Positions 806-16,021 of a DNA stretch of 33,094 bases are shown in pieces. How positions within the stretch are numbered: the stretch's first letter is position 1; every line of letters starts with the position of its first letter. The stretch is from a virus. The stretch is taken from positions 1-33,094 of IMG/VR virus record IMGVR_UViG_3300010885_022219; one strand, 5' to 3'. Both the position numbers and the translations under genes were made by a program. The notes below the pieces were generated by a model. That model saw nothing but the letters and a program-made list of their open reading frames with translations, searched no databases and was not told the origin of the DNA.

Positions 806-2025
806 TGATCAATACATTTAATCCTACAAAGCCGTTTCAGAATTTTGCGCCTGTTGTACCTCCATTTCCTAAGACAACAGTTTCTATTGGTAATTCTCCT
901 CCTCCACCACCAAACGAAGAAGCTCAGTTACCTAGAGTAATTCAGTTCGGAGCAGATTTGAGTGGATGTGGTTTATATAGGCTTGGATGGGTCAGTCATT
1001 TATTGAACTATCAAGGCCATATGATGGTTACTGATACTACTGTCATGGTTTTAGATCCTAGATGGTATGTAAATGTCAAGGCAGTTAGATTACAGCGTCA
1101 GGCTACTTCATCACAATTGGAGTTCGTAAAATTCTTAAAGGAAGTTCAGAAGGAAGTTGGATTTAAGATCATTTATGAAGTGGACGATGTTGTGTTTAGA
1201 GAAGATATTCCTGATTATAACAAGTTTAAAACTGCATTTACATCTGATGAAATTCGAAATAATGTAACGAGCATTATCAATATGTGCGACGAAGTTAGTG
1301 TAACTTGTGACTTCATGAGAGATTTATATAGACAACGCACAGGTAAGCAAGAAATCACTGTAATCCCTAATTTTCCTGCGAAATATTGGATCGGAAATCA
1401 TTTCAATCCAGATCGTATTAATGCTTTATATGACAAAAATAAAAAGAAACCTCGTATCCTTTATGCAGGTAGTGGTGCTCACTTTGATGTTGAAAATCGT
1501 GTCGGTCAAAAGGATGATTTCGAACATGTTATCAAAGCTATCATAGATAGCAGACACAAATATCAGTGGGTATTTTTAGGAGCATTTCCTCCTCCTTTAT
1601 ATCCCTACATTCAAAGCGGAGAGCTAGAATTCCATCAATGGCAGAGATTGTATGATTATCCCCAAAAGATTTATGATCTTGGAGTTCAAATGATGGTTGC
1701 TCCGTTGCAAGACAATTCATTCAATAAGGCAAAGAGTGATTTAAAATACATTGAAGCTTGTGCGTTTGGTTTGCCTGCTGCTTGTCAAGATCTCTGTACA
1801 TACAAAGATGCAGAAATTAAATTTAAGACTGGCGAAGAAATGCTTGATAAGATTCATAATGAATTATCAAGAGCAGGACACTACAAGAACAGTTCGTTCA
1901 AACGCCGCAAGGTTGCGGAAGATCGATTCTTGGAAAGAGATGAAAATTTAGGTTCTTACCAAGAACTATTTTTGACACCTTATGGTTCTAAGGATCGCAA
2001 ACATTTGTCTCGCTTTAATCCTTGA
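805..2025 (+). CDS. GT-B-type glycosyltransferase
   Basis: This 406-residue protein resembles GT4-type (GT-B fold) glycosyltransferases, which move a sugar from an activated donor to an acceptor. A proline-rich tail (residues about 19-36) precedes an N-terminal domain that starts RVIQFGADLSGCGLYRLGW. The C-terminal Rossmann domain contains RILYAGSGAHFD (a typical donor-domain opening) and, near residues 310-324, KSDLKYIEACAFGLP, the acidic-plus-glycine-proline signature of GT4 donor binding. Phages use such enzymes to modify DNA or virion glycans, or to alter the host surface; the acceptor cannot be told from the sequence. The ATG at 805 directly follows an inverted repeat and a TATAAAT element, with no ribosome-binding site. 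The polymerase promoter starts within its stop region. Confidence 0.75.
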   Translation: MINTFNPTKPFQNFAPVVPPFPKTTVSIGNSPPPPPNEEAQLPRVIQFGADLSGCGLYRLGWVSHLLNYQGHMMVTDTTVMVLDPRWYVNVKAVRLQRQATSSQLEFVKFLKEVQKEVGFKIIYEVDDVVFREDIPDYNKFKTAFTSDEIRNNVTSIINMCDEVSVTCDFMRDLYRQRTGKQEITVIPNFPAKYWIGNHFNPDRINALYDKNKKKPRILYAGSGAHFDVENRVGQKDDFEHVIKAIIDSRHKYQWVFLGAFPPPLYPYIQSGELEFHQWQRLYDYPQKIYDLGVQMMVAPLQDNSFNKAKSDLKYIEACAFGLPAACQDLCTYKDAEIKFKTGEEMLDKIHNELSRAGHYKNSSFKRRKVAEDRFLERDENLGSYQELFLTPYGSKDRKHLSRFNP

Positions 2026-2050
2026 ATAGGGTAGTATTGTGTGATACAAT
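2022..2050 (+). promoter_or_regulatory. Extended -10 sigma70-type promoter of DNA polymerase
   Basis: TTGAAT (2022-2027), a 17-base spacer and TGA-TACAAT (-10 at 2045-2050). Only 8 bases separate the -10 from the ATG at 2059, so the transcript should begin at or next to the start codon. This argues against translation starting at the GTG at 2041, which lies upstream of the -10. Confidence 0.7.
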
Positions 2051-2058
2051 ACTCTCTT

Positions 2059-5000
2059 ATGTTAGGATACAGAAATGCCGTCTATAATTACAAGAATCAA
2101 GTAGTTGATATCTACACTTGGTCAAATGCAGGAGATCGAATTGTAACTTCGATAGAATGTTTTCCTTATTTTTATTACGAAGATAATAGTGGCTCTGATA
2201 TTAGTATCTTTAACACTAATTTAAAGAAGAAACATTTTAATAATGTTTTTGATAAAAGTAAATTTTTAAAGGAACGAGGCTTAAAAAGAGTATTCGATAA
2301 TTATAATCCAGTACAACAATCATTAATTGATATGTACTGGAATTATAATGATACTGAAGATTTTGCTAAATTTCCATTAAAAATATATTTTATTGACATC
2401 GAAGCTGTTGGTAAGCTGGGCTTTTCAAGCCCAAGCGAACCTAATGATGAAATTAATGTTATAACAGTATACGATTCTTTTACAAATAAGTATCATGTTT
2501 GGGGCACAAAGCCATACACTTCAAAATCTGAAGATGTAGAGTATTATTATTGCAATACTGAATATATTTTATTAGAGAAGTTTTTAGACTTCTTGAAAAG
2601 TGATTATCCAGATATTTTGTCTGGATGGAATTGTATAAGTAATGGTCAATATGTATGGTTAAATGACAGAATCGAAAAAATAGATAATTTATCATATTAT
2701 TTGGATAATCACCCACTTAAAACATATGGTGGAAGGATAAATAATCATGCTATGACTGGAATAAAAGAAGAATATTGCGTGAAAACTGAATTGGGATATG
2801 ATATTTTATGTTCAGATAAACATAAAATAATGTGTCATTCTAAATTAGTTGATGAATATAAAAACAAAAATACTTTGGGTAAAATTATTGAAGAATTAAC
2901 TGTATCTAATATAAAAACTGTTATAGATAACAAAGAGAAAGATGTATATGCTAGGATTCATGTGGGTTCTAATATTAATGCTGATCTCACATATAGAGAA
3001 TTTTTGGTGGATTTTTTCGATGAAATCGAGGAGAATCCTTCGTTTGATTTCGCTATAACATGTGCTAAGTTAAGAGATAAATTAAGATCTAACGAAGAAT
3101 TCCGCAAATTAATATCACACGAAGAATATTATAATGGAAAATTTTGGGAAAGATCTTCGAATTGGAGGTATTCTATTGTTAAGTCATTTTTGAATCGAAG
3201 TGAAGTGATTGATTTTTTAAAAACTACTAATAATTTCGTATTTAACCCCAGAGGTCGCAGATATTCAATTGATTTGAATAAGAGAATACCAGAACAGCTA
3301 ATTCAATTACTTGGATATATATTCACCGATGGTTGTCTGGATAAAAAAGATAAAACAATCACAGTATCTTCTAAAGATTTTGATTTAGTGGATTCTTATA
3401 CTAAGATCGTATCATCATACGTAAATAAAACTTTATCATCACCCAAGACAGTTAATCATAAATTGGGTATATGTTATTCGAAGAAATTTAGTTTAACTAA
3501 TGAAATTGGTTTCATGCTTGGAATGATTTATAATAAAGATTTAGGTAAACAGCCAAATATTAGGCTGATATCTAGATTATCATATAGCCAATTCTATCAT
3601 TTTTTTGCTGGAATGATTGATGGTGATGGATGGATCGGGGAAAGTGCTATTAATTTATGTAATTTTGATTGTAAAAAATATAATTTTTTGTTGGATATTC
3701 AACAAATCTTGTTATGGAATGGGGTTATAAGTTATAAATCTGAAGATTATGTGTCCATACCAATGTTTAGTAAAAATGTCGAATTCGTGAACAAATGCGG
3801 AGAAATCATGCATAATACTGAAAGATCAGAAAAAATAAAAAATATTAAAGAATCTCCAGAAAGAAACTCAAGTAATAAAAGTATTAGGTGGGTTTTTGAT
3901 GAAATTAAATCGGATATTTTAGTGAAAATTAGATCAATTGAATCCACTGGTAAAATGGTTGAAATGTATGATATAGAGACAGAGGATCACGTATTTTTAT
4001 GTAATGGAATGCTAGTCCATAACTGTGATAGATATGACATTCCTTATATCATCAACAGGATGGAAAAGGTCTTAGGGAAAGAAGAAACGGACACAATATC
4101 TCCCTACAAACGAAGGTATACAAAAGTTTTTAATGGCAAGTTTGGTAAAAAGGAAATAGTCCATCGAATAGATGGTGTGTCGTGCGTGGATTATATGGAC
4201 ATTTACAAAAAATTCTGTCCAGTAAACCGAGAATCATATAAACTAGATTACATTGGTCAGGTAGAATTGCAAGAAAATAAATTGGATTATGGAGATCAGA
4301 GTTTGTATGAATTCATGATGGAAGATTGGGAAACGTTTGTTGACTATAATATACAAGACGTAAAACTTTTAGTAAATCTAGAGAAAAAATTACAGTATAT
4401 TCAATTACTTAGAATGTTGTCGTATATCGGTTGTACGACATTTGAATCAGCATTAGGAACTGTTGGTGTTGTTACAGGTGCTGCTGGAATAGAGGCTAGA
4501 AAGCGCAATCAAAGATTGTGTACTTTTGTAGTAGAAGAAAACGAAGAACCAAGGGATTTCGAAGGAGGATTTGTATTTCATCCAATACCCGGTCATCATA
4601 CATCGATTGTAAGCTTTGACGCAAACTCGCTGTATCCAAATACAATGATAACGTTGAATACTTCGCCAGAAACGAAGATGGGAAAGATAGAAAGTATTCA
4701 AAAAGATAAGATTTCGGTAAGAAACATTGATGGAGTAGTGATAGATTTTACGCCTATAAATTTTTTAAATTACCTCAAAAAGGAAAACATTTCTTTGTCG
4801 AAAGCAAACGTTCTCTTTTCGCAAAAGAAGAAGGGGATTTTAGCAGATTTGGTAGATATTTATTATAAGAAACGTGTGTCAATCAGACAAGATTCAAAAA
4901 ATTTAAAAACTAAATTAAAGAATGAAAATGAAATTGATAAACAAAATTTAGAAAATAAAATAGATCAATTAGATACAAAACAACAGGCTATTAAGATCTT

Positions 5001-6015
5001 TTTGAACTCTGTTTATGGTGCTTGTGCGAATAAATTTTGTCCTATTGGTGACGTAGATATTGCAGAATCAATAACACTGACTGGTCAATCGGTAATTAAA
5101 GAATCTAGAGAAATCTTCAAAAGATTCATAACAGAAAAAACCGGAATCTCCGACATTTCGGAGTTAAGTAAAGGTTTGATTGCAGGTGATACGGACAGTT
5201 TGTATGTATCTTTCGATCAATTAGTTGATAAGTTTTCGGAAAATAATAAGATCACTCCACAAGCTTACGAAATAGCGGAAGAGTTTCAGACATACTTAAA
5301 TGATAATATTAAAAAATGGGCCAAAAACATTTTAAATACTAAAGATTGTAGGTTTGAATTTAAAAGAGAAAACATGTGTGATGCTGGAATTTTCTTGGAA
5401 AAGAAGCGGTATGTGTTGCACGTTCTGGATAAAGAAGGAATTCCATCAAACAGTTGGAAATATACAGGCGTTGAAGTGGTTACAACCACAATGCCAAAAG
5501 CTGTTAAGCCATATGTAAAAAGTATAATAGAAAATATTATTTTAACTAAATGTGAATCATCCACAAATGATTTATTTAGAAAGGCTTATGATACATTTTT
5601 CCAAATGGATATCTCTGAAATATCAATCTCAAAAGGAATTAAAAATTTAGAAAAATACGAAGCATTGTGTGAGGATTTTGTCACTTGTAAAGGTATGCCG
5701 TGTCATGTAAAGTCTGCGTATTACTATAATTTATTATTAGATAAATTGGGCATAACAAACAAATACGAAAAAATTGTAAGCGGAGATAAGTTAAAATATT
5801 TTTATCTAGAAACACCAAACGTCTATGGTATATCTACCATAGCTTTTAAAAATAAATACCCAATAGAATTTAAATCTATATTTAAACCAGACATTTATAC
5901 AATGTTTGAAAAGGATATGTTCATGTGTATAGAAAGATTTTATAAAATAATGAATTGGATTCCAAGAAAACCTACAGAACAATTAATTTGTTCTTTAGAT
6001 GATATTTTGGGTTGA
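2059..6015 (+). CDS. 43: Family B DNA polymerase (T4 gp43-like) with in-frame intein
   Basis: This is the replicative DNA polymerase with 3'-5' proofreading. The 1318-residue precursor contains a 464-residue intein; after splicing the product would be about 854 residues, close to T4 gp43 (898). Exo I is FIDIEAVG (D113, E115). Exo II reads GWN/CDRYDIPYIINR once the intein is removed. Exo III is YNIQDVKLL. Polymerase motif A is SFDANSLYPN (D854 in the precursor), motif B is KIFLNSVYGA, and motif C is AGDTDSLYVSFD (D1044, D1046), so all catalytic residues are present. I chose the ATG at 2059 because a strong promoter lies just upstream and overlaps the alternative GTG at 2041. The next gene follows after 34 bases. 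Confidence 0.95.
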   Translation: MLGYRNAVYNYKNQVVDIYTWSNAGDRIVTSIECFPYFYYEDNSGSDISIFNTNLKKKHFNNVFDKSKFLKERGLKRVFDNYNPVQQSLIDMYWNYNDTEDFAKFPLKIYFIDIEAVGKLGFSSPSEPNDEINVITVYDSFTNKYHVWGTKPYTSKSEDVEYYYCNTEYILLEKFLDFLKSDYPDILSGWNCISNGQYVWLNDRIEKIDNLSYYLDNHPLKTYGGRINNHAMTGIKEEYCVKTELGYDILCSDKHKIMCHSKLVDEYKNKNTLGKIIEELTVSNIKTVIDNKEKDVYARIHVGSNINADLTYREFLVDFFDEIEENPSFDFAITCAKLRDKLRSNEEFRKLISHEEYYNGKFWERSSNWRYSIVKSFLNRSEVIDFLKTTNNFVFNPRGRRYSIDLNKRIPEQLIQLLGYIFTDGCLDKKDKTITVSSKDFDLVDSYTKIVSSYVNKTLSSPKTVNHKLGICYSKKFSLTNEIGFMLGMIYNKDLGKQPNIRLISRLSYSQFYHFFAGMIDGDGWIGESAINLCNFDCKKYNFLLDIQQILLWNGVISYKSEDYVSIPMFSKNVEFVNKCGEIMHNTERSEKIKNIKESPERNSSNKSIRWVFDEIKSDILVKIRSIESTGKMVEMYDIETEDHVFLCNGMLVHNCDRYDIPYIINRMEKVLGKEETDTISPYKRRYTKVFNGKFGKKEIVHRIDGVSCVDYMDIYKKFCPVNRESYKLDYIGQVELQENKLDYGDQSLYEFMMEDWETFVDYNIQDVKLLVNLEKKLQYIQLLRMLSYIGCTTFESALGTVGVVTGAAGIEARKRNQRLCTFVVEENEEPRDFEGGFVFHPIPGHHTSIVSFDANSLYPNTMITLNTSPETKMGKIESIQKDKISVRNIDGVVIDFTPINFLNYLKKENISLSKANVLFSQKKKGILADLVDIYYKKRVSIRQDSKNLKTKLKNENEIDKQNLENKIDQLDTKQQAIKIFLNSVYGACANKFCPIGDVDIAESITLTGQSVIKESREIFKRFITEKTGISDISELSKGLIAGDTDSLYVSFDQLVDKFSENNKITPQAYEIAEEFQTYLNDNIKKWAKNILNTKDCRFEFKRENMCDAGIFLEKKRYVLHVLDKEGIPSNSWKYTGVEVVTTTMPKAVKPYVKSIIENIILTKCESSTNDLFRKAYDTFFQMDISEISISKGIKNLEKYEALCEDFVTCKGMPCHVKSAYYYNLLLDKLGITNKYEKIVSGDKLKYFYLETPNVYGISTIAFKNKYPIEFKSIFKPDIYTMFEKDMFMCIERFYKIMNWIPRKPTEQLICSLDDILG
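2632..4023 (+). mobile_element. Intein with LAGLIDADG homing endonuclease in the polymerase Exo II motif
   Basis: The intein runs from Cys (first residues CISNGQYVW) to the C-terminal LVHN, followed by Cys as +1 extein residue, so all splice-junction residues (C1, penultimate H, N, +1 C) are present. Block B appears as GYDILCSDKHKIM and block F as YDIETEDHVFLCNG. Two LAGLIDADG-type motifs sit about 100 residues apart: LLGYIFTDGCL (intein residues about 226-236) and FFAGMIDGDGW (about 324-334). Acidic catalytic residues are present in both, so the endonuclease may be active. Removal joins GWN to CDRYDIPYIINR, restoring a standard Exo II motif. The protein is therefore a contiguous, potentially self-splicing intein rather than a split one. 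Confidence 0.92.
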
Positions 6016-6039
6016 TTTTTTAATATTATATGGTAAAAT
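6012..6039 (+). promoter_or_regulatory. Extended -10 promoter of the 6050 gene
   Basis: TTGATT (6012-6017), 16-base spacer ending in TGG, and TAAAAT (6034-6039). The -10 ends 10 bases before the ATG at 6050. The -35 overlaps the polymerase stop codon. Confidence 0.6.
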
Positions 6040-6049
6040 AATTACTCAT

Positions 6050-6394
6050 ATGAATATTACTACATTTATTGATGCAATCGGGAGAAACATTATCGGTGAA
6101 CAAGTAACGAGGACACAAACACTTCTTACTGTCAAGAATCCAGCCATGATTAACGTTTCTCAGGCCCAGAATGGTCAACTTCAAGTACAACTAATTCCTT
6201 TGTTTTTTGCTGAATTTATTTCAGAATCTGCAAGGGCTGAAGGTAGCACATGGGACTTTAACACTGCAACAATTACACAAGGTACAGTTGAGGTCGATTC
6301 TCGTCTTGCTGAACAATATACCAGAGTGTTTAACGTTGCGCCTCCTACACCTGAAGGTGCTGGCGAAAATGTAGTTAAATTGTTTGACGAATAA
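6050..6394 (+). CDS. Conserved small protein between polymerase and uvsX (114 aa)
   Basis: A 114-residue soluble protein starting MNITTFIDAIGRNIIGEQ, with a central segment QLQVQLIPLFFAEFISESA and the C-terminal EQYTRVFNV. From memory, marine T4-like phages carry a similar small protein of unknown function in this same place between gene 43 and uvsX, so a role linked to replication or recombination is plausible but unproven. No catalytic motif is visible. I chose the ATG at 6050 because the upstream in-frame ATG (5999) would overlap the polymerase gene and lies upstream of the gene's own promoter. Its promoter class groups it with the replication genes. A strong terminator follows. Confidence 0.75.
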   Translation: MNITTFIDAIGRNIIGEQVTRTQTLLTVKNPAMINVSQAQNGQLQVQLIPLFFAEFISESARAEGSTWDFNTATITQGTVEVDSRLAEQYTRVFNVAPPTPEGAGENVVKLFDE

Positions 6395-6455: not shown

Positions 6456-6483
6456 TTGCTTTTTATATAATTTGTGGTATAAT
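6456..6483 (+). promoter_or_regulatory. Extended -10 promoter of uvsX
   Basis: TTGCTT (6456-6461), 16-base spacer ending in TGG, and a perfect TATAAT (6478-6483). Only 8 bases (tcttttct) separate it from the ATG at 6492, and there is no ribosome-binding site. This is the clearest candidate for a leaderless transcript in the window. Confidence 0.8.
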
Positions 6484-6491
6484 TCTTTTCT

Positions 6492-7625
6492 ATGGATAAA
6501 GAAATACTTAAAGCCTTGAAGGTGTTAGAAGAGGGAAATCCTTTCGCTTCGTTTTTAAAAGATTCTTCGTTGAGTCGTGTAGATAAGTGGTTTAGTACTG
6601 GAAGTTATGTTTTAGATGGTATCATTAGTGCTAGAATGATAAATGGTGGTATTCCTAGTGGTCGTTTGACTGTGTTTTATGGTGAGAGCATGACATACAA
6701 GTCATCGTTAACACAAAAGATTTTAGCGAATGCTCAGAAAGCTGGAATTATTCCAGTTATTTTTGATAGTGAAAATGCTATTGATGCTGAAGGTGCGGAA
6801 AGATTAGGTTTAGATACCTCTAAGATAATGCATGTTCCTATTTTTAATATAGAACAATGTAGAAATAGTTTATTTAAATTTTTAACTTCAGTAAAAGAAA
6901 AGGGATTAGAAGGTAAGTTTATTATCGCAATTGATTCTTTAGGGAATTTAGAAAGTGCAATAGAGACGGCTAGAATTGAAAAGGATTCAGTAAGTGTAGA
7001 TATGGGGTCTAGGGCGAGAGCTATTAAGTCTTTACTCAGAACGGCTACTCAATTATCTGCACAAACTAAAACTGCGATTATCATAACCAATCATTTGTAT
7101 GATAATCCCGGCGATTTACATCCTTCTTTGGTTAAGAATATGCCCGGTGGTAAAGCTTGTGTATATTTGCCATCTGTTTCCGTACAATTGATGAGGAAGC
7201 CAGTAAAGGAAGATGTTATTAAATCAGATTCTGGTGGTCTTGCTGTATTACAGAGAAATTATGTAGGGATTATTATTCGTGCGCTTACGGCTAAAAATAG
7301 GTTTGTTAAACAGTATTTAGAAGGAGAGATTTATGTTTCGTTTGAAAATGGTGCTGATAAGTATCACGGTCTTTTAGATATTGCAGTAGGATTAGGTATT
7401 ATAGAACAAACTGGTTCTACATACTTATTTAATGGTGAGAAGCTAGGATATGCGAAAAGTTTTGTAAATAAACAATCTTTTTGGGATGCCATTATTCCAT
7501 TGATAGAAAAAAGAATTAAAACCGAATGGGCTTATTCTTCTGAGCAAGAAAAAGAAAATAATAAGATGGAAAAGATGATCGAAGAAGAAATTGACGAAGA
7601 AACTAAAGATGAAATTGAAAAATAA
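6492..7625 (+). CDS. uvsX: UvsX, RecA-like recombinase
   Basis: This is the phage RecA homologue, which forms filaments on ssDNA and drives strand exchange for recombination-dependent replication and repair. The Walker A region is GESMTYKSS (residues 64-72); like T4 UvsX it deviates from the GxxxxGKT consensus in having an aromatic residue where the second glycine would be. The FDSENAID segment holds the likely catalytic glutamate (E94), and Walker B is FIIAIDSLG (D148). The protein has 377 residues (T4 UvsX 391). It ends in a strongly acidic, lysine-containing tail (EEEIDEETKDEIEK), as RecA-family proteins often do. It has its own extended -10 promoter and follows a terminator. Confidence 0.95.
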   Translation: MDKEILKALKVLEEGNPFASFLKDSSLSRVDKWFSTGSYVLDGIISARMINGGIPSGRLTVFYGESMTYKSSLTQKILANAQKAGIIPVIFDSENAIDAEGAERLGLDTSKIMHVPIFNIEQCRNSLFKFLTSVKEKGLEGKFIIAIDSLGNLESAIETARIEKDSVSVDMGSRARAIKSLLRTATQLSAQTKTAIIITNHLYDNPGDLHPSLVKNMPGGKACVYLPSVSVQLMRKPVKEDVIKSDSGGLAVLQRNYVGIIIRALTAKNRFVKQYLEGEIYVSFENGADKYHGLLDIAVGLGIIEQTGSTYLFNGEKLGYAKSFVNKQSFWDAIIPLIEKRIKTEWAYSSEQEKENNKMEKMIEEEIDEETKDEIEK

Positions 7626-7642
7626 TTAAAGTATGGTTAAAT
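7615..7642 (+). promoter_or_regulatory. Extended -10 promoter of the 7649 gene
   Basis: TTGAAA (7615-7620), 16-base spacer ending in TGG, and TTAAAT (7637-7642), 6 bases before the ATG at 7649. The -35 lies in the last codons of uvsX. The -10 also resembles the late motif (TTAAATA), so the class is slightly ambiguous. Confidence 0.5.
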
Positions 7643-7648
7643 AGTTTT

Positions 7649-7876
7649 ATGTTAAACGACATAAATACCGTATCCAGTCTATTATTCACAGAGTTTTCAA
7701 AACTTGGAAAATATGTTGCAGTACATGCAGAAGGAAATATTCTCCACATTAAACTACAAAATTCTCAAACTAGAATTTTAAACTGGCAAACAGTTCCTCT
7801 GGAGGAAATTTTAAGTACGGCAAAAGGTTTAACCTTAAACGAAAATTATAAAGGAAGCGTTCTGCTTCACGGATAA
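7649..7876 (+). CDS. Small protein of unknown function downstream of uvsX (75 aa)
   Basis: A 75-residue soluble protein, MLNDINTVSSLLFTEFSKLG at its start, that I do not recognise. No membrane segment, cysteine cluster or catalytic motif is visible. It follows uvsX by 23 bases, with a TGG-TTAAAT promoter element ending 6 bases before the ATG and no ribosome-binding site, so its promoter type groups it tentatively with the replication genes. A strong bidirectional terminator directly after it ends the rightward unit. Confidence 0.65.
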   Translation: MLNDINTVSSLLFTEFSKLGKYVAVHAEGNILHIKLQNSQTRILNWQTVPLEEILSTAKGLTLNENYKGSVLLHG

Positions 7877-7909: not shown

Positions 7910-8570
7910 AATAGTTTCTATATCTTTGTTCTATCGAGAATTTGTGTTGCCTCGATTTTATGTAATTTTCTCTCAATAAATTATTGATAGCTTTTTGTGA
8001 AAGTCTTACGTTTTCTTTTTTGATTACTGAATTTATAGGTGTTTCGTCTTCTGGTCTTTGGTCGTCGTAATCATGATAGTCTTCGCAATCTTCTTTTTCG
8101 TAATCTTGACAATCTTGACAATCTTGTGCATCTTCGTCCGTTTCATCTTCTGAAGAATAATCATCTTCGGTTTGATCTTCGTGGTTATCTTCAGACTCAA
8201 AGTCATCTTCGTGATTATCTTCACCTTGTTCAGAGGGTAAACCTGAATCTACTCCAGACATTTCGCCTTCGCTTTCCATTCTAGCATCTGCGATAGAACT
8301 CTTTAATTGTGGTTCAAATTTACCATTTGTTACTTCTTGATCGTTTGCGATTCTGATGATATCTTCATCAGCAATATCATTAATATCAACATCATCACCC
8401 TTCTCTTTTCTTAAAATGTCAGAAATTTTATTGACTACATAGGTAGGAGAATTTCCAAGAGAAGTCCTTACGAATAGGTTTGTGATACGTTGTTTAAGCT
8501 CATCAGAATGAAGTCTCCCTTCATTTAAGATTGAACGATTAGCCCATCCGGGTCGATTTAAGATACTCAT
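7908..8570 (-). CDS. Acidic, low-complexity late protein (220 aa)
   Basis: Unrecognised protein with three parts. Residues 1-95 look folded and contain a short charged helix-forming stretch (SDELKQRITNLFVRTSLGNS). Residues about 95-170 are extremely acidic with short repeats (EDNHED twice, then QDCQDCQDY and EDYHDYDD), including three or four cysteines in DC pairs. The C-terminal 50 residues are basic (QKAINNLLRENYIKSRQHKF). A folded head, acidic linker and basic tail is seen in phage scaffold or internal head proteins, but this assignment is only an inference. An AATAAATA late motif ends 6 bases before the ATG on the minus strand, which supports late expression. It is divergent from the glycosyltransferase at 8616. 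Confidence 0.7.
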   Translation of the reverse strand: MSILNRPGWANRSILNEGRLHSDELKQRITNLFVRTSLGNSPTYVVNKISDILRKEKGDDVDINDIADEDIIRIANDQEVTNGKFEPQLKSSIADARMESEGEMSGVDSGLPSEQGEDNHEDDFESEDNHEDQTEDDYSSEDETDEDAQDCQDCQDYEKEDCEDYHDYDDQRPEDETPINSVIKKENVRLSQKAINNLLRENYIKSRQHKFSIEQRYRNY

Positions 8571-8576
8571 ATTATA

Positions 8577-8584
8577 TATTTATT
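8577..8584 (-). promoter_or_regulatory. Late promoter motif AATAAATA of the acidic protein gene
   Basis: Minus strand AATAAATA, 6 bases (tataat) before the ATG at 8570. It is divergent from the TATAAATT motif at 8603-8610. Confidence 0.5.
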
Positions 8585-9735: not shown

Positions 9736-9904
9736 AAGACTCTCAAATCTGTTCGAAAAACATAAAGAAATAAACATTACAGATTTTTTTAGAGCACCCT
9801 ACTCTGTCTACTCTAACGAAGAGACTTTCGATCTGAAATTTTACACATCACAAAAGGCGATCCTTGTTTACAAAATCTTCGTGGAATCAAAAAAAGACGC
9901 TTGA
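9587..9904 (+). CDS. Conserved phage protein of unknown function, RKDF-type (105 aa)
   Basis: A 105-residue protein with the series NEYLKESRKSKNLPYKIRKD, then LSNLFEKHKEINITDFFRAP, then FDLKFYTSQKAILVYKIF. This series (Y..YL..SR...N.P.K.RKDF, then FF..P, then YFDLKFY..QKAI..Y) matches, from memory, a protein family found in many T4-like and other large phages, with no known function. The family-like part begins inside the overlap with the previous ORF, which suggests this frame is the real one in 9587-9735. No ribosome-binding site precedes the ATG. The ssb promoter overlaps its stop codon. Confidence 0.65.
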   Translation: MEQKLKKVYTDLQKKIYNEYLKESRKSKNLPYKIRKDFTKMNQTNQICLERLSNLFEKHKEINITDFFRAPYSVYSNEETFDLKFYTSQKAILVYKIFVESKKDA

Positions 9905-9929
9905 CTTCGACTTTACAGTATGGTATCAT
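9901..9929 (+). promoter_or_regulatory. Extended -10 sigma70-type promoter of ssb
   Basis: TTGACT (9901-9906), 17-base spacer ending in TGG, and TATCAT (9924-9929). Unlike the other promoters of this class it lies 41 bases before the start codon, so ssb should have a leader of about 35 bases. Confidence 0.75.
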
Positions 9930-9970
9930 GCTACCTCAATTAAATTCAACAACTAACTAAAATACTAAAT

Positions 9971-10822
9971 ATGATTACAGCATCAATGTTTAACTCAATC
10001 AAAGAAGCTCTTGCCAAGAGCGAATCCTCATCGTCAAATTCACTTTACAAGGAAATTTTGAAGTTCAAAGAAGGTAATACTTATGTTCTTCGTCTTTTAC
10101 CAAATCTAAAAGAACCCAGTAAGACTTTTTATCATTTCTTCTCTCACGGTTGGAATAGCTTTTCTACAGGGCAGTATGTTTCTGCTCTTAGCTTACAGAC
10201 AATCGGTCAACCTGATCCAATTGGTAGAGAACGCTATCGTCTTTCTAAGACTGGTACGGATGAAGAGAAGAAGAAGGTTGCAGATGTAAAATGGCAAGAA
10301 CAATGGTATGTAAACGTTTATGTTGTGGATGATCCCGTCAATCCATCAAACAACGGAACTGTAAAAATCTTCCGCTATGGAAAGAAGTTAGATCAAAAGA
10401 TCACTTCTGCTATTAGTGGAGATGATTCTGATGAGTTTGGCGTAAAAGTTTTTGATTTGTCTCCTGCTGGAGTGAATTTTAAACTGAAGGTTGAAAAGAA
10501 TCAAGGAGGATTTATTTCTTACGATGCGAGTAGATTTACATCTCCAGTAGATCTAAACCTTTCCAAGGAAAAGCAAACAGAAATCTTAGAATCTATCCAT
10601 GATTTAACTGCTGTTAATACACTAAAGTCGGAGCAAGAGCTTCTTGATATGTGGAATACACATTTCTTGTGCAAGGAAAACACTTCTACTCCTACAAGTC
10701 AAGCTAGTACAGTTTCTACACCAGAAACACCAAAAGCTGCCTCTAAAACAGAGGATAAAGCAGACGATTCGGAGATTTCCGATGAAATGATAGCAGATTT
10801 GCTAAAAGGTCTAGAAAATTAA
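9971..10822 (+). CDS. 32: Single-stranded DNA-binding protein (T4 gp32-like)
   Basis: Coats ssDNA at the replication fork and organises replication, recombination and repair. The 283-residue protein has the gp32 plan: a basic N-terminal cooperativity region, an OB core with LYKEILKFKEGNTYVLRLLP and TFYHFFSHGWNSFSTGQY, the stretch WYVNVYVVDDPVNPSNNGTV followed by KIFRYG, a Ser/Thr/Pro linker (about residues 235-262) and an acidic C-terminal tail ending ISDEMIADLLKGLEN that would contact partner proteins. The zinc-binding cysteines of T4 gp32 are absent: the core has no CxxC pair, although the first histidine (FSHGW) remains. It has a leader of about 35 bases, unlike its neighbours, and a strong terminator downstream. 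Confidence 0.93.
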   Translation: MITASMFNSIKEALAKSESSSSNSLYKEILKFKEGNTYVLRLLPNLKEPSKTFYHFFSHGWNSFSTGQYVSALSLQTIGQPDPIGRERYRLSKTGTDEEKKKVADVKWQEQWYVNVYVVDDPVNPSNNGTVKIFRYGKKLDQKITSAISGDDSDEFGVKVFDLSPAGVNFKLKVEKNQGGFISYDASRFTSPVDLNLSKEKQTEILESIHDLTAVNTLKSEQELLDMWNTHFLCKENTSTPTSQASTVSTPETPKAASKTEDKADDSEISDEMIADLLKGLEN

Positions 10823-10877: not shown

Positions 10878-10889
10878 ATAACTAATAAT

Positions 10890-11348
10890 ATGTCTGAAGA
10901 ATACTTTTTACAAGAAAATCACGAAATCCACCCGCAAGAATTAAAAGATATTTTAACTGGTTTTTTGGGTCAAACATACGGAGAAATTTCAAAGTATGAT
11001 GCAAATATCGTTTCGGAAAATCCTTTTCTTTCTCCTAAGAAAAGAGAATTTCAGATGGTAGCCGAAAAGGTTTTACAAGAAGCCGTACCTTCTACACAAA
11101 GAACAAAACAAATACCAGTATCAAATCATCCCGTTCATATTCCGCAACCTTACATTCCACAACCACAAAATTTTCAACCAGTCGATAATTCTCAATTAGA
11201 ATTTAATTTTGATAACAGCATAACAGCAATTACTATTAATAATAGATTAAATGATATAGAAAAGCTTTTAAAAAAGCTCGACAAAACAGTATCATCTATG
11301 GTAGAATATTTGTCAAAGTATGAAGCTAATAATAAAGAACAAATTTAA
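10890..11348 (+). CDS. Unknown protein with C-terminal coiled coil (152 aa)
   Basis: An unrecognised 152-residue protein. It has an N-terminal charged region (residues 1-70), a Pro/Gln-rich linker (about 86-107, with PQPYIPQPQNFQP), and a C-terminal heptad-rich segment (RLNDIEKLLKKLDKTVSSMV) that should form a coiled coil. This arrangement suggests an adaptor or oligomerising protein, but no function can be given. It begins 13 bases after the ssb terminator with no clear ribosome-binding site, and its end overlaps the sliding clamp gene by 29 bases. The clamp promoter therefore lies inside its coding sequence. Confidence 0.65.
   Translation: MSEEYFLQENHEIHPQELKDILTGFLGQTYGEISKYDANIVSENPFLSPKKREFQMVAEKVLQEAVPSTQRTKQIPVSNHPVHIPQPYIPQPQNFQPVDNSQLEFNFDNSITAITINNRLNDIEKLLKKLDKTVSSMVEYLSKYEANNKEQI
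11278..11307 (+). promoter_or_regulatory. Extended -10 promoter of the sliding clamp inside the upstream gene
   Basis: TCGACA (11278-11283), 18-base spacer ending in TGG, and TAGAAT (11302-11307), 12 bases before the ATG at 11320. The TGG and distance match the other replication promoters, though both hexamers are weaker. Confidence 0.5.
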
Positions 11349-12060
11349 TTTTTTACAAAAATTCCTAATTCCCATCTCTAGAATTAACGATATCTGCTCA
11401 TTAAAAGTAGAAAATGGTTCATTGTATACAATGACCAGAACTATTGACAGCATGTTTGCTCTGTATGCATCTTGCGATGATGTAGAAATAGTTGATTATA
11501 CTTCAGATAAAAATCTTAATTTTTCTGATATTAAGAAATTTATTAAAGCTTTTGAATGTACTGAAGGAGAAACTATAGAACTTATTTTGAATGAAAATAA
11601 TGTTGAATATAAATCTCCTAATTTAAAATTCAAAATCCATTTAATAAATGATAATCTAATTAAGGTTCCAAATTATAATTTGGAAAAAATTAATAGTTTA
11701 GAATATAATTTGACAACTAAAATATTATCGAGTTCGATCTTATCTTTTATAAAGAGCAGCACATTCATCACTGATAGCAATAAGATTTATATTAGAACTG
11801 AAAACGATAACCTGATGGGTGAACTATGCGATAAAACTAGAAGTAATATTGATACTTTTACATCAAGATTATCTGATTCATATAATGGAGAAGAAACATC
11901 CAAGGATATTATTTTGAGTTTTGACATTTTTAGGATCATTTCTGCACTTAAAGTCGAAGAAATTGATTTCAAAATGAATACAAAACAAGGTTTTGTTGCT
12001 TTTGAGTTCTCTGAAGATAAATATAAGTTGAAATATGTAGCAACAACCATGATTTCATAA
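11320..12060 (+). CDS. 45: Sliding clamp (T4 gp45-like)
   Basis: DNA polymerase processivity clamp, which in T4 also activates late transcription. The 246-residue length (T4 228) and the layout MKLIIKNKFNFLQKFLIPIS then SLYTMTRTIDSMFALYASCD match the gp45 opening (short helix, first beta strand, ligand-binding region). The C-terminal end FEFSEDKYKLKYVATTMIS is a typical closing beta strand and tail. Overall identity looks low, so the call rests on fold-like pattern and on context among replication genes. The ATG at 11320 overlaps the preceding gene by 29 bases; the promoter inside that gene supports this start. If this phage has T4-type late transcription, the clamp would link replication to the late motifs described here. 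Confidence 0.8.
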   Translation: MKLIIKNKFNFLQKFLIPISRINDICSLKVENGSLYTMTRTIDSMFALYASCDDVEIVDYTSDKNLNFSDIKKFIKAFECTEGETIELILNENNVEYKSPNLKFKIHLINDNLIKVPNYNLEKINSLEYNLTTKILSSSILSFIKSSTFITDSNKIYIRTENDNLMGELCDKTRSNIDTFTSRLSDSYNGEETSKDIILSFDIFRIISALKVEEIDFKMNTKQGFVAFEFSEDKYKLKYVATTMIS

Positions 12061-12061
12061 T

Positions 12062-12424
12062 ATGACTTTAAATAAAAGACAACAGAATAAGATTAAAACT
12101 CCGGGTTATTTTATTAAAAGGTTAAGAGATTGTAAATTTGGTGTATTGCGTGTATTTCAACAATACGGAATTCACGATCATAGAAGATGGACGGTATTGA
12201 TTGATCCGGGCGGTTGCTCTATTTTTGTAACTTGTTATAATAATAGAAGTTTCAATGACGATATCATGTTCGAATTTAATGATGGTGGAAATTATTTTCC
12301 CAAAAACTTCTCAATAAGTACAGAATCTATCGAGGTTATTGTACAAGTTTTGATTGATAAGGGAGTTCCTGTTTTGGAAAAAAACAACACCTTTTTTAAA
12401 GAAAAACAAAATGACTCAAAATAG
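12062..12424 (+). CDS. Conserved hypothetical protein downstream of clamp (120 aa)
   Basis: A 120-residue basic protein. The central part (GYFIKRLRDCKFGVLRVFQQ, then YGIHDHRRWTVLIDPGGCSI) has many conserved-looking residues (Gly, Arg, Trp, Asp) and the C-terminal half has FEFNDGGNYFPKNFSI. From memory this resembles a short protein seen near replication genes in T4-like phages of marine bacteria, function unknown. The start follows the clamp stop by one base, with no ribosome-binding site, so translation is probably coupled. It overlaps the next gene by 14 bases. Confidence 0.65.
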   Translation: MTLNKRQQNKIKTPGYFIKRLRDCKFGVLRVFQQYGIHDHRRWTVLIDPGGCSIFVTCYNNRSFNDDIMFEFNDGGNYFPKNFSISTESIEVIVQVLIDKGVPVLEKNNTFFKEKQNDSK

Positions 12425-12764
12425 TGATGAAGACCCTATAGTTCCAAAAAAGAAACGTAATCTTTCTAAGAAACCTTTAAAGAAAGATATCGGATCGTCG
12501 CCCATTTCTTCAGATCAAATTCAAAAGCTTTTAAAAGAAGCTTTGATAAAAAACATGAAGGAAAAACATAAAGAAAGCGAATTGGAAGTAGATGCGTTGA
12601 TATCAACTATGGAAGAATTTTTGAGATCTTTTATTGTAATAGGATATAGTATGAATAATGAACCGATTGTTGTAACTAATGCTAAATCTCAATTAGATGC
12701 AGATGCATTATATACGGCACTTTCAAGATTATTTTTTTCGTTGAATGGTGGAGGGCCAATGTAA
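12411..12764 (+). CDS. Unknown basic/helical protein (117 aa)
   Basis: An unrecognised 117-residue protein. The N-terminal 35 residues are lysine-rich (VPKKKRNLSKKPLKKD), followed by helical segments (SSDQIQKLLKEALIKNMKEK). The C-terminal half (LRSFIVIGYSMNNEPIVVTN) looks like beta strands and ends LNGGGPM. The start is the ATG at 12411; an upstream ATG at 12354 would overlap the previous gene much more. It shares the junction TAATG with the next gene, so the genes 12062-13030 are probably co-translated. Confidence 0.6.
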   Translation: MTQNSDEDPIVPKKKRNLSKKPLKKDIGSSPISSDQIQKLLKEALIKNMKEKHKESELEVDALISTMEEFLRSFIVIGYSMNNEPIVVTNAKSQLDADALYTALSRLFFSLNGGGPM

Positions 12765-13030
12765 TGAGTACTAAACCACATCCATTAATTGGTCATTCAT
12801 ATTCCGTGACTGGTGGAACATACATAGGCGAGATGTTCGTCTATATAGAAGAGTCTCCAAACGAATTTCATTTTATTTCTGTTCCTAAAAATATTAACAG
12901 AAATGTTCCAAAAGATAAATTTTATTTTGGTTTAGAAAATGGAATTTTGGAGCATGTTCTGAAAATAGAACCTAAAGTGTTTAAATTGTTGAGTAAACAA
13001 TATACTTTTAACCTTAACAACGCTAAATAG
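12764..13030 (+). CDS. Unknown small protein (88 aa)
   Basis: An unrecognised 88-residue protein. The pattern HPLIGHSYSVTGGTYIGEMF, then VYIEESPNEFHFISVPKN suggests a compact beta-rich fold, and the C-terminal half is charged and helical. It is joined to the previous gene by a one-base TAATG overlap. A late motif CTAAATA covers its last codons and drives the next gene. Confidence 0.6.
   Translation: MSTKPHPLIGHSYSVTGGTYIGEMFVYIEESPNEFHFISVPKNINRNVPKDKFYFGLENGILEHVLKIEPKVFKLLSKQYTFNLNNAK
13023..13029 (+). promoter_or_regulatory. Late promoter motif CTAAATA of the 13035 gene
   Basis: CTAAATA, 5 bases (gtatt) before the ATG at 13035. It overlaps the end of the preceding gene and is isolated within the replication cluster. 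Confidence 0.6.
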
Positions 13031-13034
13031 TATT

Positions 13035-13238
13035 ATGGAAATAGTAAGACCTGTTAGAATTACATCACCAATTAGTGGACAACCAGTAGAACCAAGAATC
13101 ATTGAACGTAGGTATGGTGATAAGATTTATGTAGAAGCTCATTGGATTGATCCAAGTAGTGGTGCCTTTATTCGTAAGGGCATGGTTAAAATTTTAGACG
13201 CAGTTTCTAAAGAAGATATCACATCATCTTGCAGATAA
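13035..13238 (+). CDS. Small late protein, zinc-free beta-rich (67 aa)
   Basis: An unrecognised 67-residue protein: it begins MEIVRPVRITSPISGQPVEP, continues with ERRYGDKIYVEAHWIDP and ends with SGAFIRKGMVKI. The sequence looks like a small beta domain. A CTAAATA motif 5 bases before the ATG marks it as late, although it lies between replication genes; it may be a virion or assembly protein. Four bases separate its stop from the -35 of the primase promoter. Confidence 0.6.
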   Translation: MEIVRPVRITSPISGQPVEPRIIERRYGDKIYVEAHWIDPSSGAFIRKGMVKILDAVSKEDITSSCR

Positions 13239-13241
13239 ACC

Positions 13242-13269
13242 TTGTGTTTTGTAAAAAATCTGGTACAAT
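13242..13269 (+). promoter_or_regulatory. Extended -10 promoter of primase
   Basis: TTGTGT (13242-13247), 16-base spacer ending in TGG, and TACAAT (13264-13269), followed by 8 bases (cacaatct) and a GTG at 13278. The distance is the same as for the polymerase and uvsX genes and selects the GTG as start. Confidence 0.7.
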
Positions 13270-13277
13270 CACAATCT

Positions 13278-14267
13278 GTGAAGACCGTACCAGAAGATTA
13301 TGTTGTAGTTAAATTTTTTCAGTACGTAGGTGCTCCAGAAAAAAATAAATACAATAATACCTACCAAGGATCTTGTCCTATGTGCAGGGAAGGATCTTCT
13401 TGGTTAAGAAAACGCAGATTCTATTATCTGCCTAAATTAAATAGAGTATTCTGCCACAATTGTGGCTATAATAAATCTCCATTGTCTTGGATAATGGAGA
13501 TTTCTTGTTGTAGTTTGACCCAAATTCTTTCGGAGTTAAACGAAACATCTTCAGAACTTAAATTGGAAGAAGATAAAAGGCAAGAAATTAAGGTAGAAAC
13601 TCTACCTAAAGATTGTATAAATTTATTTGATGAAAGTCAATTACAATATTATAAACACAATAAAATTGTAAAACTTGCCTTAACTTTTATGCGTGGTCGA
13701 TTACTAGACACTGCTGTAAATCGCCCAGAAGCACTATTCTTGTCTCTTGACGATAGAATCCATAAGAATAGATTGATACTTCCGTTTTATGATGATAATA
13801 ATAAAATAGTTTATTATCAATCAAGGACTATTCTGGAAGCAGATATGATGTGTAAACCCAAATATCTATCTAAATTTAATAGCGAAAAGACTATATTTAA
13901 TATTAATAAAATAAATTCAGAATTAGATACAATTTATATTTTTGAAGGCCCAATAAATTCTTGTTTTATTAAGAATGGAGTTGCTGTCGGAGGAATACAA
14001 GAAAATTCTTATCAAATGTTCACTTGTAAACAAAAAGAACAAATCGACAAATTTCCTTTCCACAAAAAAATATGGATTTTAGATTCTCAATGGAAAGATA
14101 AAGCCGCTTTCAATAAAACTAAAAAGCTTTTAGAATTAAAGGAAAACGTTTTTATTTGGCCTAAAAAATTAGGCGAAAAATATAAAGACTTTAATGATAT
14201 AGCTATTGCTATTAAATGCAATCAAATATCACCAGAATATATAAAAGATAATTGTTCTAAAAAATAA
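13278..14267 (+). CDS. 61: DNA primase (T4 gp61-like)
   Basis: Synthesises RNA primers for lagging-strand replication together with a gp41-type helicase (not in this window). The 329-residue protein has an N-terminal zinc ribbon (C33, C36, C59, C62, as CPMC and CHNCG) and a Toprim-like C-terminal half with TIYIFEGPINSCF (catalytic E). The second Toprim element reads WILDSQWKDKA rather than the usual DxD, so the second aspartate is shifted or lost. The GTG at 13278 is chosen because it is 8 bases after a strong -10; an upstream TTG at 13242 would lie at the -35. The gene ends exactly where the leftward nuclease gene ends on the opposite strand. Confidence 0.88.
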   Translation: MKTVPEDYVVVKFFQYVGAPEKNKYNNTYQGSCPMCREGSSWLRKRRFYYLPKLNRVFCHNCGYNKSPLSWIMEISCCSLTQILSELNETSSELKLEEDKRQEIKVETLPKDCINLFDESQLQYYKHNKIVKLALTFMRGRLLDTAVNRPEALFLSLDDRIHKNRLILPFYDDNNKIVYYQSRTILEADMMCKPKYLSKFNSEKTIFNINKINSELDTIYIFEGPINSCFIKNGVAVGGIQENSYQMFTCKQKEQIDKFPFHKKIWILDSQWKDKAAFNKTKKLLELKENVFIWPKKLGEKYKDFNDIAIAIKCNQISPEYIKDNCSKK

Positions 14268-15125
14268 TTATATATTATATAAATGTTTTTTCCCATTATT
14301 AGAAAAAACTATAATTAAATGTTTATATCCAGCATCAAATGATGCTTTTTGTTTTATTAAATTTATTTCTTTGTTATTATTAAATGTGTATTCGCATTTA
14401 ATTTCAACTAAAAGATTTATTTTTGGTATAAAAATATCGGGAAAATATATTCTTCGTGATTTATAAAAATATTTAATTTTTGGTAAATCATGACATCTTC
14501 CTGCTTTTATATCATTTATTTTGATATCTGAATAATTTTGTAATATATACTTAATTCCTTGTTCTTCGTATCCTTGTAATCTATCAAATGTTATTTCGTT
14601 TATAGTACACGTTTTGTATTTATATCTATTTAAATTAGATTTTTCGAAAATTTCTGAATGCTGCATTGGGTTAGTAACACCAAATTTTTTTATATTACTT
14701 TCAATAACTTTTTGTTTTGTATATGAATTATTTTGAGATTCTGTATTAGATCTTATTTTTATATTATTCTTTCTAAGAATATTTAATATAGTTCTATGTG
14801 TTACCGAATATTTTAAACCCATTTCCACACAACCTTTTCCGTTTTTATATTCTTCTATAATTAAATTTATTATAGATTCATCTTTTATTTTTGCTTTGGA
14901 TTTTCCAAATTTTTTATTATAAACGTTAGTATTTCTAGCTTCTTTTGGATTCCTAATATAAATTTTGTTTTTTACTAGAATTTTTTTAATAGCATTTTGT
15001 GATGCTGAATATTCTATAGACAATGTTTTAATACCATAACCTTCTATATATTTAGATATAATAGTAGTTTCTTTATCTTTTAAAGCGGGGTTATTAGATT
15101 TATAAATTATATTTATATTATTCAC
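14268..15125 (-). CDS. Free-standing homing endonuclease-like protein, PD-(D/E)xK type with two HTH
   Basis: A 285-residue protein, probably a selfish nuclease gene. Two similar N-terminal blocks (about residues 22-57 and 84-125) look like helix-turn-helix repeats that bind DNA. A linker (KFGVTNPMQHSEIF) typical of phage endonucleases follows. The C-terminal domain has QGYEEQGIKYIL (E187), YFPDIFIP (D230) and LLVEIKCEYT (E241, K243), which fit a PD-(D/E)xK nuclease fold, then QKASFDAGYKHLIIVF. The start is a GTG at 15125. It is inserted in opposite orientation directly after primase and its base composition looks more AT-rich than its neighbours. The family call rests on motif pattern only; no GIY-YIG or LAGLIDADG motif is present. 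Confidence 0.75.
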   Translation of the reverse strand: MNNINIIYKSNNPALKDKETTIISKYIEGYGIKTLSIEYSASQNAIKKILVKNKIYIRNPKEARNTNVYNKKFGKSKAKIKDESIINLIIEEYKNGKGCVEMGLKYSVTHRTILNILRKNNIKIRSNTESQNNSYTKQKVIESNIKKFGVTNPMQHSEIFEKSNLNRYKYKTCTINEITFDRLQGYEEQGIKYILQNYSDIKINDIKAGRCHDLPKIKYFYKSRRIYFPDIFIPKINLLVEIKCEYTFNNNKEINLIKQKASFDAGYKHLIIVFSNNGKKHLYNI

Positions 15126-15130
15126 ATAAA

Positions 15131-15138
15131 TATTTATT
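15131..15138 (-). promoter_or_regulatory. Late-type motif AATAAATA of the homing endonuclease gene
   Basis: Minus strand AATAAATA ends 5 bases (tttat) before the GTG start at 15125, matching the structural-gene promoters. In such AT-rich DNA it could be a chance match. Confidence 0.45.
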
Positions 15139-15172
15139 CATTTATAATTAAATTATAAGACGCAAAGTATAA

Positions 15173-15598
15173 TTATACACCCCGGTATTTCGAATCAGTT
15201 GAACTTGCTAAATAACCTTTCAACATCTCATTGAGAGATGTTACTTCCATAGATACGCGAGCTATTTTCTTAGTTTCTGCGACTCTGATCTTGTCAAACA
15301 AAGAATCAGGAATGCAATTCTTTAGCTTAGATTGCATTGAATTAGGATCGGTTCCGTTCAAAGATCTAGAAAACTCTTCCAAATTCTTGATCCATCCTTG
15401 TAATGTAGTTACCATTTGTTGCTGCATCTTGGAAGTTGCGGCAAGATGATCTGCTGCTGCTCCACCATCGACATCAAAATCTTGAGGATTTGTTCCATTA
15501 TCCAAAGATTGTTGCATTGCTTCTGAATCTGATACTTCAGGAAGTTCTGGTTCTTCTCTTAGAACATGTACGAAGGCTTTTTGAAAAATATTATCCAT
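15173..15598 (-). CDS. Putative late head/virion-associated protein (141 aa)
   Basis: An unrecognised 141-residue protein with an acidic N-terminal part (MDNIFQKAFVHVLREEPELP), an Ala/Asp-rich centre and a helical C-terminal half (MLKGYLASSTDSKYRGV at the end). The N-terminal pattern FxKxFxxVLxEE resembles the start of the acidic protein at 24272-24910 and could be a head-targeting peptide, but this is an inference. The gene has a perfect CTAAATA motif 5 bases before its ATG on the minus strand, so it is almost surely late. Downstream on the same strand is the nuclease gene. Confidence 0.65.
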   Translation of the reverse strand: MDNIFQKAFVHVLREEPELPEVSDSEAMQQSLDNGTNPQDFDVDGGAAADHLAATSKMQQQMVTTLQGWIKNLEEFSRSLNGTDPNSMQSKLKNCIPDSLFDKIRVAETKKIARVSMEVTSLNEMLKGYLASSTDSKYRGV

Positions 15599-15603
15599 GT
15601 GAT

Positions 15604-15610
15604 TATTTAG
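15604..15610 (-). promoter_or_regulatory. Late promoter motif CTAAATA of the 15598 gene
   Basis: Minus strand CTAAATA, 5 bases (atcac) before the ATG at 15598. It is divergent from the GTAAATA at 15620-15626. Confidence 0.65.
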
Positions 15611-15619
15611 TCAAGATAG

Positions 15620-15626
15620 GTAAATA
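15620..15626 (+). promoter_or_regulatory. Late-type motif GTAAATA upstream of the 15663 gene
   Basis: GTAAATA ends 6 bases before a GTG at 15633 and 36 bases before the ATG at 15663. With the motif 10 bases away on the other strand it forms a divergent pair. If used, either the GTG is the start or the mRNA has a 30-base leader. Confidence 0.45.
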
Positions 15627-15662
15627 AATGTAGTGAAAATTAAAAATATAAGAGAAGATATT

Positions 15663-16004
15663 ATGGCTAATGCCGATAGGCAAGTAGCAGGTGTTGGTCC
15701 CGGCGCAACGGATGAACCGTTTTATCAAATGCCGATTGATATTCCTAACGATAGGCATATCAAGGCTGCTAATGCCACTTTACCCAATGAAATTCAAAGA
15801 TATAAAGATAGGATTTTTGAGATTTTTGGAAAAATGGCAGATCTTCGTGGAGATTTTCAAAAAGCATCTGATGAAAATCCAAGCGTAAAAGAATCACAAA
15901 AGGTAGCTTTAGATAAAGTAATTAAAAGATTAGACATATTAAATCAAAAATTAATACAAATACCTGACTTTTTAGTAGTTTTTGAGGTTGATTTAAAGGA
16001 TTAA
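15663..16004 (+). CDS. Unknown helical protein (113 aa)
   Basis: A 113-residue protein of unknown function. After an N-terminal MANADRQVAGVGPGATDEPF it has an amphipathic helical region (EIQRYKDRIFEIFGKMADLR, then KVALDKVIKRLDILNQKLIQ) that could form a coiled coil, and ends with VFEVDLKD. I prefer the ATG at 15663, preceded by a purine-rich AGAGAAG 5 bases upstream, over the GTG at 15633, which however is at the right distance (6 bases) from the GTAAATA motif; the start is uncertain by 10 codons. The promoter of the next gene lies in its last codons. Confidence 0.65.
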   Translation: MANADRQVAGVGPGATDEPFYQMPIDIPNDRHIKAANATLPNEIQRYKDRIFEIFGKMADLRGDFQKASDENPSVKESQKVALDKVIKRLDILNQKLIQIPDFLVVFEVDLKD

Positions 16005-16015
16005 TGTGGTATAAT
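15988..16015 (+). promoter_or_regulatory. Extended -10 promoter of the 16022 gene
   Basis: TTGATT (15988-15993), 16-base spacer ending in TGG, and a perfect TATAAT (16010-16015), 6 bases before the ATG at 16022. It is fully within the end of the previous gene and selects the ATG at 16022 rather than the one at 16004. Confidence 0.75.
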
Positions 16016-16021
16016 ACATTG

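Follow-up and report, generated by a model that had tools for sequence, protein, structure and literature searches.

Do the promoters of a T4-like phage lie so close to its start codons that the mRNAs would carry no leader? The question is raised by the virus record IMGVR_UViG_3300010885_022219, 33,094 bases with 30.5% guanine plus cytosine (GC), which was analyzed over its whole length and is called the window below. The original prediction placed sigma70-type promoters almost on the starts of its replication genes and read the mRNAs as leaderless. Its gene content marks the window as part of the genome of an uncultured T4-like myovirus: matches to PHROGs include a family-B polymerase, UvsX, a gp32-type ssb, a primase and TerL, and the sheath matches T4 gp18, so that PolB gp43, UvsX, gp32-type ssb, primase, TerL gp17 and sheath gp18 of the T4 superfamily are all present. 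The nearest INPHARED phages to TerL, UvsX and the sheath share only about 29-38% identity, and there is thus no close cultured relative. Searches of IMG/VR returned 22 loci for TerL, 10 for ssb and 146 for UvsX, of which 80 (57-87% identity) were kept; judging from their contig identifiers, these relatives presumably come from lakes and the sea. From the comparisons set out below, most transcription units of this lineage are very likely leaderless or near-leaderless.

All eight predicted sites were found in place or nearly so (Table 1). Of the six described as principal start-adjacent sigma70 sites, those of the polymerase, the 6050 gene, uvsX, the primase and the 16022 gene (6-10 nt from the start) hold up, with TTG at -35, TAnAAT at -10 and a spacer of 16-17 bp; the sixth, before the 7649 gene, is better placed in the late class treated below (d = 5, where d is the number of nucleotides between the end of the motif and the start codon), is a weak case, and is not kept in orthologues, several of which show GGAGGTGA at that place. 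The clamp as a weaker site and ssb with a more distant promoter were both described correctly. In relatives, the polymerase promoter is kept as TTGA, a spacer of about 17 bp and TGnTAnnAT, followed by M-x-GYR at the same ATG, which places the polymerase start at 2059 and not at GTG 2041. The 6050 gene likewise retains TTGA and TGTTAnnAT near its ATG, a -10-like element lies just 5' of the uvsX ATG in most of about 60 relatives (57-87% identity), and several relatives have a comparable element at a comparable distance before the clamp gene.

The dominant start-adjacent signal is, however, a different one, the T4-type late promoter nnTAAATA, which lies mostly 5-7 nt from the starts of structural and late genes. 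In the window it precedes the sheath gene, seven minus-strand genes and the genes at 13035, 20693 and 30900, and it stands 10 nt before the tube gene. The arrangement is therefore not peculiar to replication genes, as had been proposed, but is shared by an early and a late promoter class. Among relatives it is kept at the polymerase, the 6050 gene, the minus-strand gene 15173, the sheath and the tube; most sheath orthologues have CTAAATA at the same spacing, most tube orthologues have TAAATA near the start, and motif and spacing are common to most orthologues of the minus-strand gene starting at 15598. The N-termini of TerL orthologues converge on the Met of ATG 24984, with TAAGTA or TAAATA 5 nt before it. 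Convergence and element together settle the starts of both the polymerase (ATG 2059) and TerL (ATG 24984); the real terminase start is thus probably five codons inside the longest open reading frame (ORF).

Positional enrichment in related phages had been set beforehand as the test, and it proved strong. Matrices were built from the window and run on relatives against dinucleotide shuffles of each upstream region, with the first ATG of the longest ORF taken as the gene start. The late matrix scored at 4-8 nt in 11 of 35 window genes (0.7 expected) and, in relatives, in 82/281 (4.5 expected), 53/178 (3.6), 38/151 (3.0), 23/107 (1.9) and 20/61 (1.1), that is, in 21-33% of their genes compared with a shuffled expectation of about 2%; the controls gave 0/113 for T4 and 0/57 for a cyanophage. 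Pelagibacter phage HTVC008M (L170, L172), which keeps its Shine-Dalgarno (SD) sites, has late boxes at 4-8 nt in 7 of 105 genes (1.6 expected), a small excess that is possibly a partial version of the start-adjacent arrangement. For the early class, the extended -10 matrix found three window starts at 5-10 nt (0.2 expected), although it was trained on these very sites; evidence from outside the training set is the conservation in relatives of the elements before uvsX, the polymerase gene and the 6050 gene. Enrichment of the TGn-extended matrix is confined to the window and its nearer relatives; in more distant relatives TATAAT occurs without TGn, 5-9 nt before 22 of 181 genes (G002) and 19 of 155 genes (G003).

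Could these elements arise by chance where DNA is AT-rich, or from biased annotation? TATAAT and TAAATA are indeed frequent at the GC content of the window, and a generic promoter scan returned 107 sites, close to the 98.3 of shuffled sequence. Yet a motif-first scan, which is free of annotation, yields a peak at a single position: among 439 TAAATA sites in TerL loci, 73 lie at d = 5 and 13 at d = 6, and in a 236-kb relative 67 of 418 lie at d = 5, each position farther out than d = 11 holding 0-4. In UvsX loci the same scan places a TATAAT peak at d = 6-8. Shuffles fall short more than 10-fold, and the AT-rich control phages T4 and HTVC008M (34-35% GC) show no comparable peak, T4 having instead a hump of TAAATA at d = 25-29. 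Shuffles and control phages together reject chance, to which we give a negligible probability.

The two motifs also differ in what lies upstream of them. TTG occurs at a 16-bp spacer in 38 of 88 start-adjacent TATAAT-type sites, and at 15-17 bp in 49, whereas only 6 of 229 TAAATA sites have TTG at spacer 16 and no TTG peak appears; the latter thus have a TATAAATA-like box at -10, nnTAAATA, without a -35 element. In T4, a late promoter is an 8-bp box placed roughly one helical turn before the transcription start site, and nothing is conserved at -35 (PMC2988020). The contrast is the one expected between sigma70 and gp55 promoters, and a gp55 homologue was found in four relatives, with up to 50% identity over 78 residues to the HTVC008M protein. 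These observations bear on a second possibility, namely that the AT-rich elements are translation signals, such as an unstructured or non-SD initiation box, and not promoters. The SD content of the lineage is low, and AT-rich non-SD initiation regions are used by some bacteria (PMC9581028). However, translation has no need of TTG at a fixed 16-bp spacer from TATAAT-type sites, the words match the sigma70 and T4-late consensus exactly, permuted AT words give no comparable peak, and tightly overlapping genes seldom have the elements before them; we regard a purely translational role as very improbable.

Genomic context points the same way. Of divergent gene heads, 62% have one or the other element, as do 71% of genes lying 6-25 nt behind a same-strand gene, but only 18% of genes that overlap or touch their neighbor (gap of 5 nt or less), which is the behavior expected of promoters. 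The elements might still be promoters whose leaderless products are minor, most protein being made from longer read-through mRNAs started upstream. Many co-oriented genes are separated by short gaps, and genes behind the shortest gaps, 5 nt at most, are mostly without elements, as such a scheme would have it. Against it, the scarcity of SD-like sites would leave read-through mRNAs without a conventional ribosome site; a terminator-like hairpin lies ahead of several start-adjacent genes, as at 6417-6449 before uvsX; and the divergent heads with elements have no co-directional gene upstream. Dominance of read-through is accordingly very unlikely in our estimate, though slightly less so than the translational explanation. 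Over positions 1-17200 there are 20 terminator-like sites, compared with 5.7 expected, and strong hairpins stand between genes at 6417-6449 (scored on both strands), 7874-7910 and 10842-10876.

Where transcription would start relative to the start codon can be read from the numbering of known promoters. The first base of the T4 late box is numbered -13 (PMC2988020). The 8-bp box then ends at -6, so that d = 5 would put the A of ATG at +1 and d = 6 would give a 1-nt leader. The sigma70 -10 hexamer spans -12 to -7, and d = 6 would therefore place the A at +1 and d = 8 would leave a 2-nt leader. At late sites with d = 5 (n = 139), ATG is preceded by T or C in 88% and by G in 1%, compared with 55% pyrimidine at other intergenic starts (n = 221); in genes with d = 6 (n = 52) the preceding base, the predicted +1, is a purine in 66%. 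Initiators usually prefer a pyrimidine at -1 and a purine at +1. The pyrimidine bias before ATG thus reads as an initiator signature that would place +1 on the A of ATG, and it lends independent support to this position of the transcription start.

Translation signals of the usual kind are few. SD-like motifs precede 6-13% of genes in the lineage, compared with 58% in T4, 51% in HTVC008M and 32% in the cyanophage. The predicted lack of ribosome-binding sites was borne out for the genes named, but it does not extend to the whole window, where AAAGGAGA lies upstream of gene 492-707 (minus strand) and GGTGGAGG belongs to 12764. The strong SD match GGAGGTGA occurs 5' of the gene downstream of uvsX in L034, L035, L043, L047, L108 and L032 and is missing from the window; near the end of uvsX it can also be read as coding sequence for the UvsX C-terminus. 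RegA, a translational repressor of T4, acts on initiation regions (PMC3014915). The RegA Pfam family was absent from eight relatives, including contigs of 236, 171 and 155 kb, and present in 4/4 control T4-like phages, which fits a loss of leader-based control. Phage-encoded bS21 or IF3, sought as translation helpers, were likewise absent from the eight relatives.

From enrichment, the sigma-specific behavior at -35, the initiator signature and SD scarcity, all of which support leaderless mRNAs as originally predicted, we infer the following scheme. Host sigma70-type promoters (TTG, 16-17 bp, TAnAAT, TGn being frequent in the subclade of the window) would serve the replication genes, and late promoters of the form nnTAAATA, without a -35 element, would serve structural and other late genes and be recognized by host RNA polymerase carrying a gp55-type sigma factor of the phage. 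In both classes the -10 element would be so placed that +1 falls on the A of ATG or just before it, most transcription units beginning at the start codon or no farther than about 0-4 nt from it, and ribosomes would initiate on the 5'-terminal AUG. Genes inside operons overlap or would be coupled, and a few keep an SD site.

Several points weigh against this scheme. Upstream promoters could outrank some of the start-adjacent ones and add leadered read-through mRNAs; a minority of genes have an SD-like motif; and the window fragment ends before any gp55 gene. The relatives are themselves fragments, possibly incomplete, so that the lack of RegA is provisional. The counts are blurred by the first-ATG rule and are interdependent, since G002 is closely related to G003 and others share ancestry with the window. 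Finally, ssb in the near clade is leadered, its promoter lying 41-107 nt upstream.

This ssb leader has features of its own. Its last 40 nt contain 0-3 G and are often built of (AACT)n or (AAACT)n in tandem, and leaders similar to that of the window occur in L108, L045, L034, L043 and L112. In most of the distant relatives shown, by comparison, ssb has the arrangement TTG-TATAAT-6 nt-ATG and would be leaderless. In T4, gp32 uses an unstructured leader to repress its own translation, and by this analogy the near-clade leader may plausibly be an autoregulation site.

Table 1. Promoter elements and the ssb leader in the window (distance, nucleotides from the end of the motif to the start codon).
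Feature	Position	Strand	Elements	Distance (nt)	Start codon
DNA polymerase promoter, sigma70-type	2022..2061	+	TTGAAT 2022, 17 bp, TGA-TACAAT 2045-2050	8	ATG 2059
6050 gene promoter, sigma70-type	6012..6052	+	TTGATT 6012, 16 bp, TGG-TAAAAT 6034-6039	10	ATG 6050
uvsX promoter, sigma70-type	6456..6494	+	TTGCTT 6456, 16 bp, TGG-TATAAT 6478-6483	8	ATG 6492
ssb promoter, sigma70-type	9901..9973	+	TTGACT, 17 bp, TGG-TATCAT 9924-9929	41 (G-poor leader)	ATG 9971
G-poor ssb leader	9930-9970				
Clamp promoter	11278..11322	+	TCGACA, 18 bp, TGG-TAGAAT 11302-11307	12	ATG 11320
Primase promoter, sigma70-type	13242..13280	+	TTGTGT 13242, 16 bp, TGG-TACAAT 13264-13269	8	GTG 13278
16022 gene promoter, sigma70-type	15988..16024	+	TTGATT 15988, 16 bp, TGG-TATAAT 16010-16015	6	ATG 16022
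Late-type (weak case)	7636..7651	+	GTTAAATA	5	ATG 7649
Late-type	8568..8584	-	AATAAATA	6	ATG 8570
Late-type	13022..13037	+	GCTAAATA	5	ATG 13035
Late-type	15123..15138	-	AATAAATA	5	GTG 15125
Late-type	15596..15611	-	ACTAAATA	5	ATG 15598
Late-type	19957..19973	-	TATAAATA	6	ATG 19959
Late-type	20659..20675	-	CCTAAATA	6	ATG 20661
Late-type	20680..20695	+	ACTAAATA	5	ATG 20693
Late-type	24193..24208	-	ACTAAATA	5	ATG 24195
Late-type	24908..24923	-	AGTAAATA	5	ATG 24910
Variant late-type, terminase (TerL)	24971..24986	+	TAAGTA	5	ATG 24984
Late-type, tail sheath	27288..27303	+	ACTAAATA	5	ATG 27301
Late-type, tail tube	30278..30298	+	ACTAAATA	10	ATG 30296
Late-type	30885..30902	+	GTTAAATA	7	ATG 30900

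Two further features of the window concern individual genes. The DNA polymerase ORF (2041-6015) contains an in-frame insert at about codons 195-660, which we read as intein-like, with polymerase homology returning at about 4020. Beside the primase gene, a late-type element precedes the GTG of the minus-strand ORF 14268-15125.

As to the host, we tentatively lean towards Verrucomicrobiota on genomic grounds. Two relatives carry DUF1501 genes (listed loci L149:1305-2504, L129:7124-8392 and L131:14244-15605), an unusual auxiliary gene for a phage, and the neighbor of one appears to us DUF1549-like. Among cellular DUF1501 proteins, those nearest to the phage copies belong to Verrucomicrobiota and Planctomycetota, which points to hosts in one of these phyla; one phage copy falls near Akkermansiaceae sequences. 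A contig of a GTDB metagenome-assembled genome (L174, titled Roseibacillus sp. SP52) holds 4.9 kb of phage-like DNA (1-4950, about 33% GC), about 80% identical over 2.6 kb to relative G002 and joined to bacterial DNA of 51-61% GC; ambiguous bases lie near the junction, which may be a misjoin. In Verrucomicrobiota, SD sites are not enriched before genes (13.5%, against 17.4% for a control window), and the leaderless signature is weak: bipartite promoters stand at d = 4-8 in 15 genes, where other distances predict 5.3. Planctomycetota genes do have SD sites (34%). A Bacteroidota-type host was rejected because the early motif TTG-16/17-TATAAT is unlike the promoter of that phylum, TAnnTTTG, and a SAR11-type host because HTVC008M keeps SD sites. 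Direct searches returned little: a UvsX-based search of genome contigs gave no relative, TerL found only weak matches (21-33% identity) in 388 Verrucomicrobiota genomes, a search for a UvsX relative in 195 genomes from a single family gave only RecA-level matches, with identities of at most about 30%, and the single tRNA-Asn in each of three relatives was uninformative as a host clue. On the whole it seems fairly likely that the lineage has lost SD leaders and RegA-type control and has both promoter sets placed to start most transcription units at the AUG, probably matching SD-less Verrucomicrobiota, the ssb leader of one subclade excepted.

Textbooks present T4 as the model of phage expression that is leadered, driven by SD sites and regulated through leaders. 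The gp55-gp33-gp45 late transcription of T4 resembles the present system in the TATA-like box at -10, the absence of a -35 element and the gp55 homologue of relatives; in T4, however, the late box lies mostly about 25-29 nt from the start and genes rely on GGAG-type SD sites, whereas here nnTAAATA has relaxed first bases and stands at 5-6 nt. In phiKZ-type giant phages the late promoter motif includes TATG, so that promoter and start codon may likewise be merged, but these phages use their own multisubunit RNA polymerase and unrelated promoters. Leaderless genes of bacteria, known from Mycobacterium among others and forming a class of their own in GeneMarkS-2, also have a -10 element one start-site distance upstream and no SD, and leaderless mRNAs are reported to make up as many as 40% of transcripts in such bacteria (PMC9581028); here the genome is that of a phage, and promoters of a phage-encoded sigma factor are included. 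The lambda cI mRNA also begins at or near its AUG (PMC9031893), yet that is one regulatory gene, compared with replication and structural genes genome-wide here. Among the open-licence papers searched we found no earlier report of genome-wide leaderless T4-like phages. If the scheme is right, a late-sigma promoter and a translation start can evolve as one element, host ribosomes are predicted to initiate efficiently on a 5' AUG, many environmental contigs gain a start-codon rule, and abundant mRNAs such as that of the tail sheath offer a natural test system for leaderless initiation. T4-type late promoters and leaderless mRNAs are both known kinds.

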